Source: Devosia sp. RR2S18 (GTDB lineage: Bacteria; Pseudomonadota; Alphaproteobacteria; Rhizobiales; Devosiaceae). From it: DNA of 64,000 bases. The notes beneath the pieces were generated by a model. It saw nothing but the letters and a program-made list of their open reading frames with translations. It was not told where the DNA came from and did not search any database. This document shows positions 54,354 to 57,577 of this stretch, piece by piece (positions within the stretch are counted from its first letter, which is position 1; the number at the start of each line of letters is the position of its first letter). Both the position numbers and the translations under genes were made by a program. The stretch is taken from positions 248,001-312,000 of the forward strand of contig NZ_CP126539.1 of NCBI RefSeq assembly GCF_030177755.1, in the 5' to 3' direction.

Positions 54354-55292
54354 ATGTCCAGCACCATAGTGGCCAAGACCACCCCATTGGACCCGGTCGG
54401 CTACGGCTTTGCCGTCATGGGGGCGGTGCTCTTCTCCACCAAGGGCATCTTCATCAAGCTCGCCTACGGTGCGGGGGTCTCCACCGAGCTGCTGCTCAGC
54501 CTTCGTATGCTGGTTGCCCTGCCGATCTATCTCGTCATTTTAGCGCTGGTTCTGTGGCGCGAAGACAAGTGGCGCGCAGCGCTCACGGCCCGGGTGGTGC
54601 TGGTCAGCATGGCCGTCGGCATCCTGGGCTATTACGTATCGAGCTACCTCGATTTCCTGGGATTGAGCTTCGTCTCGGCACAGTACGAGCGGCTGGTGCT
54701 CTTCACCTATCCGTTTTTTGTCCTCTTGTTCGGCGTCTGGTTCTTCGGTGACCGAATGGTCTGGCGCGTTGTTCCGGCGATGGCGCTTTCCTATGGCGGG
54801 CTCCTCGTCATCTTCGGCTGGAACTTGGCCGTAGCGCCGGAAGGATTGCTGGCGGGTACGCTGCTGGTGCTCGGCTCCGCAGCGACTTTCGCCCTCTACC
54901 AGCACTTGGCTAAGCGACAGATGGTGGTGATCGGCGCGAGCCTTTTTACCTGCATCGGCATGTCGACGGCGGCCCTTTGCGCCATCGGGCAGAATCTAGC
55001 GTTGGCGGGGCCACCGAGCTACTTCAATCTTCCGCCCGAAATTTGGCTTTATGGGCTCGCATTGGGAGTGCTCGGCACAGTGCTGCCCTCGTTCTTCATG
55101 AATGTCGGGATGGCGCGGATCGGCGCGCGGGCGGCGTCGTCGACGGCAGCTTTTGGCCCGGTGGTGACCATCGCTTTGGCGGTGATGATCCTCGGTGAGC
55201 CGTTTACGCCGTTCCACGCTATCGGCACGGCGTTGGTACTGCTCGGCTCACTGTGGTTTGCCAAAGCGGAGCGGGGTGCGCGAGCGGCATAA
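54354..55292 (+). CDS. DMT superfamily transporter (EamA)
   Basis: Ten-helix drug/metabolite transporter of 312 residues with two EamA repeats; first repeat includes TKGIFIKLAYGAGVSTELLL and the second ends in LGEPFTPFHAIGTALVLLGS (quoted in part). ATG 54354 is chosen since helix 1 starts shortly after it; the frame upstream overlaps xerC without homology. Substrate (amino acid, metabolite or nucleotide sugar export) cannot be told. Single gene. Confidence 0.88.
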   Translation: MSSTIVAKTTPLDPVGYGFAVMGAVLFSTKGIFIKLAYGAGVSTELLLSLRMLVALPIYLVILALVLWREDKWRAALTARVVLVSMAVGILGYYVSSYLDFLGLSFVSAQYERLVLFTYPFFVLLFGVWFFGDRMVWRVVPAMALSYGGLLVIFGWNLAVAPEGLLAGTLLVLGSAATFALYQHLAKRQMVVIGASLFTCIGMSTAALCAIGQNLALAGPPSYFNLPPEIWLYGLALGVLGTVLPSFFMNVGMARIGARAASSTAAFGPVVTIALAVMILGEPFTPFHAIGTALVLLGSLWFAKAERGARAA

Positions 55293-55367
55293 ATCCGCGC
55301 TTGTGCGGCTACAAAGCCGAGGTAAGGTGCGGCGCAACTAAGCGGAACATGGGGAGAAACAGCGGAA

Positions 55368-56312
55368 ATGACCACTAAAAACAAACTGTGGGGCTGTGCT
55401 GCCGCGAGCCTGATCCTCGCATCGGGTCTGGTGACGCCCGCCTGGGCCGACAAGATCACGCGCGAGGGCGCGTCCCCGCTAGACCCGGCAGAGATTTCTG
55501 CCCCGGGCAGCGCGTCCGAGATCGATTTCGGCGATGATAGTGGCGAATGGACCAATGACGGGGAGTGCGATGACCCCCGCTTCAGCGGCGAAGGCGCGGC
55601 CGATGAACTGGTCGAGGCGGATCGCATGAAAGACGCGACGGATTGCCGGGCGGCTTTGGAAGCCGGGACCATTACCTTCACCGGGGACGCTGAGGCCACC
55701 ACGCTTGTCGCTCCAGAGATCGATTTTGGCGATGACACCAGCGAGTGGGCCAATGATGGAGAATGCGATGACCCCCGCTTTGCGGGGCCTGGTGCGGCAG
55801 AAGAGCTGGTTGGCGCAGACCTTTTGAAGGACGCCACTGACTGCAGGGCGGCCTATGAAGCGGGAACGGTGACCTATACCGGCGACCAGACGCCGATCGA
55901 TAGTTCGGCGCCCGGGGCATTCGATTATGGCGGCGACACCAGCGCATGGGCCAAGGACGGGGAGTGCGACGACCCCCGGTTTACCGGGTACGGCATGGCC
56001 AAGAAACTCCTCAGCGAAGACAGCTATGCCGACGCAACCGATTGCCGGACGCTGGAGGCTGAGGGCAAGGTTTCTATTCGCACCGTCTATACGCCTGAAT
56101 ATGCCGCAGGCGCGCCCTATGACAGCGATGGGGTCGAATTTGGGGATAACAGCTCAAGCTTTGCCAATGACGATACCTGCGACGACCCACGTTTCGAGGG
56201 TCCCGGTGCTGCGGCACTGCTTTTGGAAGGAGATCGGCTCCGCGACGCCAATGACTGTCGCGTAGCCTATGAGGCCGGGACTGTGATGCTGATCGAATCT
56301 GAGCGAGGGTGA
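55368..56312 (+). CDS. Secreted protein with four Cys-paired tandem repeats
   Basis: I do not recognise a named family. The 314-residue product has a signal peptide (residues 1-27, ASGLVTPAWA) and then four repeats of 66-71 residues, each with an acidic head (FGDD.S.W), the core NDGECDDPRF, a small-residue GxGxA stretch and DATDCR followed by EAGTV. Each repeat holds two cysteines exactly 26 residues apart: C67/C93, C133/C159, C200/C226 and C271/C297. There are no other mature cysteines, so one disulfide per repeat is likely. The acidic DxxxD pattern hints at calcium binding (inference). Single gene after the DMT transporter, followed by palindromes. Confidence 0.85.
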   Translation: MTTKNKLWGCAAASLILASGLVTPAWADKITREGASPLDPAEISAPGSASEIDFGDDSGEWTNDGECDDPRFSGEGAADELVEADRMKDATDCRAALEAGTITFTGDAEATTLVAPEIDFGDDTSEWANDGECDDPRFAGPGAAEELVGADLLKDATDCRAAYEAGTVTYTGDQTPIDSSAPGAFDYGGDTSAWAKDGECDDPRFTGYGMAKKLLSEDSYADATDCRTLEAEGKVSIRTVYTPEYAAGAPYDSDGVEFGDNSSSFANDDTCDDPRFEGPGAAALLLEGDRLRDANDCRVAYEAGTVMLIESERG

Positions 56313-56448
56313 GTGGCAGGGGTATAGTACCCCAACCCGACCTCCCCCTGGTAAAGGGAGGAGTTGGCTCAGCGCCATACTGTGACGCGGTCACAATCCC
56401 GACGCCCCCTTGTAGGGGGAGGCTAGGAGGGGGTAACCCCAAGATCGA
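56313..56448. repeat. Extragenic palindromes between the repeat protein and sdhB
   Basis: Two CCTCCCC-type inverted repeats: 56341-56361 (CCTCCC and GGGAGG) with an outer CCAAC/GTTGG pair, and 56405-56419 (CCCCCT-TGT-AGGGGG). They resemble the palindrome at 20860-20880 and lie downstream of both convergent genes, where they may form 3' hairpins. Confidence 0.6.
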
Positions 56449-57274: not shown

Positions 57275-57577
57275 TCAGTAGTTCGGTTTGCAGACGCGGT
57301 TCGACTGGGCGACGTACGCGTTGTAGCGTGGGTAGTCGGCGGCGGCGGGCGATCCGCCCTTCATCGAGACGATAACCACGTTCATGAAGCGTTCGTCGAT
57401 TAGGGTCATGGCGGCATCGGCCTTGCAGGAACAGAGCGTCTGGTCCTGCGAGATGCCCATGCAGACGGCATAGAACTCTGCCTTCTGCTCGGCAGTAGGC
57501 GAGGCCATTGTCGGGGTGACGGCTAGCGCCGGCACCGTCAAAACGCCGAGCACCGCGGTGAGAGCAAGCTTGCGCAT
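57275..57577 (-). CDS. Small cysteine-rich exported protein inside the sdh operon
   Basis: Unrecognised 100-residue protein. A signal peptide ([20 protein letters not shown], quoted in part; cleavage near TMA-SP) is followed by about 75 residues with four cysteines: C39, C49, C51 and C96, including a CxC pair. The distance pattern and [12 protein letters not shown] resemble small periplasmic proteins annotated as hypothetical in Rhizobiales. Its start codon overlaps the sdhA stop by one base (57577) and it ends 44 bases before sdhB. A role in complex II or heme/Fe-S handling is only suggested by position. Confidence 0.75.

Follow-up and report, generated by a model that had tools for sequence, protein, structure and literature searches.

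An exported-looking array of four unnamed cysteine-paired modules encoded in Devosia sp. RR2S18

Examination of the window, the whole 64,000-nucleotide stretch of Devosia sp. RR2S18 DNA analysed here, indicated that the gene located at 55368..56312 on the forward strand probably encodes an exported array of four unnamed modules, each clasped by a disulfide and probably binding Ca2+, which would act as a stalk or a multivalent binding module. The module itself, ~55 residues in length, is by sequence criteria so far unnamed. The acidic loop on the N-terminal side of a unit (xFGDDSSxWxNDGxCDDPRF) would be clasped via the cysteines termed C2 and C4 to a C-terminal helix starting at DxxDC, with one Ca2+ most likely chelated by the invariant acidic residues of DGxCD[D/E] and DxxDC. 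The disulfide clasp, probably with Ca2+, would give rise to a small robust extracytoplasmic domain, so that full folding would be expected only outside the cytoplasm. With flexible linkers between them, the units would be strung like beads into a flexible multivalent rod. This suggested role draws on the architecture of the protein and on the protease fusions of its relatives, and for the stand-alone array an extracytoplasmic, Ca2+-stabilised stalk or multivalent binding module is our guess.

The reading frame comprises 314 codons plus a stop, in agreement with the coordinates, strand and length given in a first-pass annotation of the same DNA, and its translation bore out the accompanying description of an exported-looking protein built of repeats. 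Residues 1-27 (ending TPAWA|DK; 55368..55448, +) were judged by eye to be a signal peptide, and an extra cysteine at residue 10 lies inside this signal-peptide-like start; the protein is thus presumably exported to an extracytoplasmic location. The mature protein is very acidic (69 D+E versus 21 K+R, pI 4.05). A 262-residue antisense reading frame (55049-55837, -) overlaps the gene and appears to mirror its repeats as a shadow frame.

Profile matches placed Repeat 1 at residues 52-104 (55521..55679, +; C67/C93; 103.8 bits), Repeat 2 at residues 118-170 (55719..55877, +; C133/C159; 108.1 bits), Repeat 3 at residues 185-237 (55920..56078, +; C200/C226; 97.5 bits) and Repeat 4 at residues 256-308 (56133..56291, +; C271/C297; 97.6 bits), with successive periods of 66, 67 and 71. 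The four cysteine pairs, as originally reported, were confirmed: among 20000 shuffled versions of the mature protein, none contained four pairs at a spacing of 26 and 5 contained three. Pairwise identities ranged from 23 to 41 of 53 residues, Repeats 1 and 2 being the most alike (41/53) and pairs involving Repeat 3 or 4 sharing 23-33/53. Several details of the earlier description needed amendment. The core NDGECDDPRF, said to be present in each repeat, is found in Repeats 1 and 2, the equivalent segments being KDGECDDPRF in Repeat 3 and NDDTCDDPRF in Repeat 4, and the common ending DATDCR...EAGTV was overstated, the endings varying between DATDCRAALEAGTI, DATDCRAAYEAGTV, DATDCRTLEAEGKV and DANDCRVAYEAGTV in Repeats 1 to 4 respectively. 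Nor does the protein consist of nothing but repeats after the signal peptide: ~24 residues precede Repeat 1 and the units are separated by variable linkers, of which the one after Repeat 3 contains PEYAAGAP.

From 8000 scored candidates, a protein search conducted with the window protein recovered at least 1532 relatives with E values no higher than 0.001, among them a close homologue (P0023) that is 93% identical across 100% of the query. The best 120 of these, where named, were nearly all from Devosia or Pelagibacterium, carried 4 to 8 units per protein by profile and, apart from one UniRef label of 'protease ydgD', were recorded as hypothetical. The cysteine spacing of 26, claimed as invariant, holds for all four window repeats but not for these homologues, in whose 570 core motifs it was 26 in 539, 20 in 21, 25 in 9 and 27 in 1; in a wider aligned set it was 26 in 1178/1281 two-Cys rows and mostly 20 or 19 in the four-Cys units described below. 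When individual units were compared in 115 of the best 120 relatives (the remaining five, having fewer than three units found by regular expression, were dropped), the penultimate unit was nearest to window Repeat 3 in 109 and the last unit nearest to Repeat 4 in 96. The identity of the two C-terminal units is therefore largely conserved, whereas copy number differs from one relative to another.

The earlier statement that no named domain could be recognised was upheld. No Pfam match to the window protein lay above cut-off, and the two that fell below it, HMA (PF00403; 14.5 bits versus a cut-off of 24.8) and Acetyltransf_CG, were set aside, as were scattered precomputed labels on relatives (PF17810, for example), which were below cut-off or sporadic. 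NCBIfam returned no match to the protein, and PDB searches with the two-Cys and four-Cys unit profiles were likewise negative; one PDB sequence match of the window protein, to an ATP synthase epsilon chain (E 0.059), was taken as chance. Fold searches with the whole window model yielded a single, non-significant match against pdb (E 5), ten matches up to E 10 against the viral set, none of them at E 0.001, and none against VIA; the VIA search made with the model of a four-Cys relative (L013) covered residues 212-439, which correspond to its protease and lie outside the units. Literature searches by motif and topic found, among the papers listed and as judged by title, no description of the repeat, matches to the six letters CDDPRF being papers on hCG and an hCG-based vaccine and taken as chance, and topic matches including papers on Notch or PAPP-A.

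The gene is single in its own genome. Unit profile A1 matched 74/75 genomes of the genus and 68/68 of the good ones, the sole miss being 55% complete, and in a sample of the family it matched 59/101 genomes and 5/16 genera. Across the class sample the two-Cys profile matched 12/385 genomes and, in a scan of the phylum, the four-Cys profile matched 13/398, the source genome being counted in both (in the second via its two-Cys units); the module is therefore patchy in its occurrence. On named genome contigs, 229/291 pattern matches encode relatives, from which 78 loci were kept, each truncated 4 kb away from its match or by the end of its contig, so that all neighbour counts are lower bounds. 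A xerC-like gene, resembling the integrase-family gene of the window (Pfam Phage_integrase), lies upstream in at least 54/78 loci and an EamA-family gene upstream in at least 51/78, while sdhB (Fer2_3 and Fer4 domains), adjoined by sdhA, lies downstream on the other strand in at least 31/78. The order xerC-EamA-repeat gene occurs in at least 48/78 loci, and is extended by sdhB in at least 26/78.

Array size ranged from 1 to 17 units across the 89 repeat reading frames of these loci. Single-frame arrays of 17 (L071:3206-6838) and 16 units (L084:1691-4987) were observed in alphaproteobacterial MAGs, the contigs of which also carry further two-unit frames, and one of 13 units accompanied by an EamA-like gene at 41% was observed under a Kofleriaceae label (L076) which may reflect a misbinned contig. 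Two other features of the neighbourhood may be recorded. Between sdhA and sdhB lies a gene (57275-57577, -) for a small exported-looking, cysteine-containing protein of 100 residues with no Pfam match, which occurs beside sdhB in at least 26/78 loci. Between the repeat gene and sdhB, at 56344-56422, lies a pair of palindromic elements, of which one reads CCCCCTTGTAGGGGGAGG and the other has 3 mismatches; a search of the source genome that allowed up to 2 mismatches gave 37 matches over the two strands, a figure in which certain palindromic sites appear twice, versus 0 for the reversed control. The palindromes belong to an interspersed REP-like family.

A distant form of the repeat, new here, contains four cysteines (SCxWAxDGECDE...GTGxC...GTDxxDC), and comparison of the two-Cys profile A1 with the four-Cys profile A3 gave an hhalign probability of 98.4 (E 4.9e-15 for one comparison). 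In an alignment drawing on 355 protein entries, which combine database proteins and locus reading frames with possible overlap, and comprising 2118 units, 1873 of them distinct, C2 was present in 2118/2118 and C4 in 2117, the exception being one gapped row; the units were gathered by profiles and search words that emphasise C2 and C4, such that units without these would be under-represented. The C1 and C3 columns were both filled in 829 rows, both empty in 1281, and C1 alone was filled in 8. Each of these 8 rows also contains exactly four cysteines, a gap having shifted the third, and 837/837 rows with C1 therefore have four; further cysteines occurred in 4/1281 two-Cys rows, and none of the 355 entries mixed the two forms. 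The joint presence or absence of C1 and C3 argues for C2-C4 as the likely disulfide of each window repeat and C1-C3 as an additional one, and thereby supports the original suggestion of one disulfide per repeat as probable. On the simplest reading, the four-Cys form would be paired C1-C3 and C2-C4, and the window form would have dropped, or never gained, C1-C3. A unit tree gave three changes for the co-loss with one being possible, 0/83 inner branches being starred as the units are too short to resolve them; the co-loss may thus reflect one to three events.

An AF2 model built for the window protein from 46 rows (mean pLDDT 82.2, pTM 0.46, 209/314 residues at pLDDT 90 or more) comprised four confident separate domains, confidence being low in the linkers at 109-114 and 176-182. 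In all four units the first cysteine is predicted to be a strand-or-bridge residue and the second to be the fourth residue of a nine-residue helix (90-98, in which C93 is the fourth residue, 156-164, 223-231 and 294-302). An equivalent model of the four-Cys protease L013 (48 rows) placed the last cysteine of all three units (121, 160 and 200) at the same helix position (helices 118-125, 157-166 and 197-200), giving 7/7 modelled units overall. Mean-field coevolution, for which pairs with invariant columns were discarded as artefacts, yielded matching contacts in the two forms, in favour of the proposed unit: the two-Cys pairs D6-T40 and N12-T40 have the counterparts D2-T29 and N8-T29 among the four-Cys units, above the highest of 20 column permutations in either set. 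Against it, the strongest four-Cys pair, D13-T19, is not shared by the two-Cys form.

Relatives carrying catalytic domains were identified by Pfam in several sets. Ten fusion candidates chosen by eye from 109 loci comprised five with PPC and caspase domains, three with PPC alone and two with nothing, and for four of the five PPC+caspase proteins the contig bore the label Gammaproteobacteria or that of a lineage within it. Ten other proteins comprised four trypsin-like, one with PPC above cut-off and five with nothing above cut-off, and eight more comprised two with trypsin, one with PPC and five with nothing. The expectation that relatives would occur in exported alphaproteobacterial enzymes was accordingly borne out for trypsin-like proteins, with the PPC+caspase proteins of mostly gammaproteobacterial label as a further class. 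With the unit region of L013 as query, trypsin-family labels were present in 113 of the best 120 of 407 relatives, a result favoured by the query length and its protease nature, and with a unit of the caspase-type protein L092, the best 120 of 512 relatives were mostly arrays without a domain label and included one caspase label (P0273). Among eleven distant-type reading frames from the genome scans, in seven of which four-Cys units were read by eye, five contained trypsin domains (L009, L010, L012, L013, L110) and six had no match above the Pfam cut-off (L011, L019, L111, L113, L115, L117); with only 5/11 so equipped, the idea that the four-Cys form resides mainly in proteases was dropped. 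A Pseudomonadales MAG contig carries a tandem cluster of four consecutive reading frames with two or three units each (L101:789-5599), three of which contain PPC domains, the fourth being cut by the contig end.

The acidic cluster remarked upon in the first-pass annotation proved to extend around both C2 and C4 in both forms. The D of DGxC is retained in 97% of two-Cys and 96% of four-Cys units, the D after C2 in 99% and 89%, the D or E next to it in 100% and 98%, and both Asp of DxxDC in 99% or more of each. These five common positions suggest a Ca2+ site, and the balance of the sequence evidence favours a unit that binds metal, probably Ca2+. A rather unlikely alternative is that no metal is bound, the acidic residues having structural tasks (helix N-cap, salt bridges, solubility) within an array serving simply as a spacer, in the manner of other exported repeat proteins of low pI. 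The low pI and acid excess of the mature protein would be consistent with that reading, as would the coevolving pair D6-T40 (T or S accompanying D, and A, N or D accompanying N), which resembles a helix-cap contact. However, retention of five acidic positions across forms which differ in loop length and cysteine number exceeds the needs of solubility, and a calcium-stabilised unit is preferred.

Two readings would assign the module to an established family. A faint resemblance to the Lin12-Notch repeat (LNR), noted at the outset as possibly coincidental, reduced to shared motif spacing. LNR units contain six cysteines, paired first-fifth, second-fourth and third-sixth, and bind Ca2+ by acidic residues. 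As a divergent bacterial LNR, C1-x-DG-x-C2-D...C4-DxxD-C5, the repeat would have lost a single disulfide to give the four-Cys form and two to give the window form, which we consider improbable. The DGxCD and DxxDC spacing does look alike and, with cysteine columns fixed, only 6/200 shuffles reached the two-Cys profile score, but 10 to 23/200 scored as high in the other three shuffle sets, hhalign probabilities were 5.4% and 4.8% over 7-8 columns, the unit profiles found nothing in PDB, and neither the window protein nor any of 15 four-Cys units gave a Pfam Notch match (HMMER, with its filters in force, reported no PF00066 hit up to E 10). Moreover, LNR pairing would predict loss of cysteine pairs other than the C1/C3 observed, and membership was rejected as unsupported by profile or cysteine count. 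Still less credible is a reading that spans the junction between two units, in which the module would be a circularly permuted relative of Excalibur (helix with Cys ... DxDxDGxxCE). Both do have a cysteine next to a helix-like stretch rich in Ala, together with an acidic cysteine loop, as judged from two Excalibur sequences (L140, L141), but Excalibur matched neither the window genome (G000; E 0.001) nor the window protein, the junction profile compared with those two sequences gave an hhalign probability of 0.4% with 29/100 shuffles as high, and single-unit proteins exist (L092). Membership was rejected, PF05901 being unmatched and the order of DxDxDGxxCE after the helix cysteine being reversed within the unit. 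LDLa membership was likewise rejected, there being no PF00057 match to the window protein or four-Cys units, and two or four cysteines rather than six.

An undescribed bacterial family of disulfide-plus-calcium mini-domains with its own fold can tentatively be proposed, as a possibility somewhat short of probable, in which the four-Cys form would guide or regulate secreted trypsin-like proteases, the two-Cys form would have become widespread both in long stand-alone arrays and as an addition to exported PPC+caspase proteins, and the two would be related by joint loss (or gain) of C1-C3. The module is present in every good genome sampled from the genus and fused elsewhere to caspase-like and trypsin-like domains, yet gave no Pfam, NCBIfam or structural match in these searches. 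A name for it would supply an annotation for many records of 'hypothetical protein' and give two classes of bacterial secreted proteases a common accessory part, and its two forms constitute a natural experiment in dropping or adding one disulfide in a small domain.

Of known systems, the glutamyl endopeptidase and YdgD-type serine proteases (1p3c, 7uxg) have a catalytic domain which the window protein lacks. The LNR (PF00066; Notch1 3eto, 3i08) resembles the repeat as a small extracellular module in tandem copies with DGxCD and DxxDC segments, but has six cysteines versus two in window units and four in distant ones, whereas the repeat has a predicted helix bearing its last cysteine and an implied pairing of another kind. 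LDL-receptor class A modules (PF00057) share the logic of disulfide plus calcium in tandem extracellular units, and differ in having six cysteines and a DGSDE box as opposed to two or four cysteines. Excalibur (PF05901) is likewise a bacterial module with a cysteine pair and an acidic loop beside a cysteine, although its helix and loop follow the opposite order within the unit and profile support is absent. Although its membership of these families is not supported, the repeat module may work like LNR, LDLa or Excalibur.
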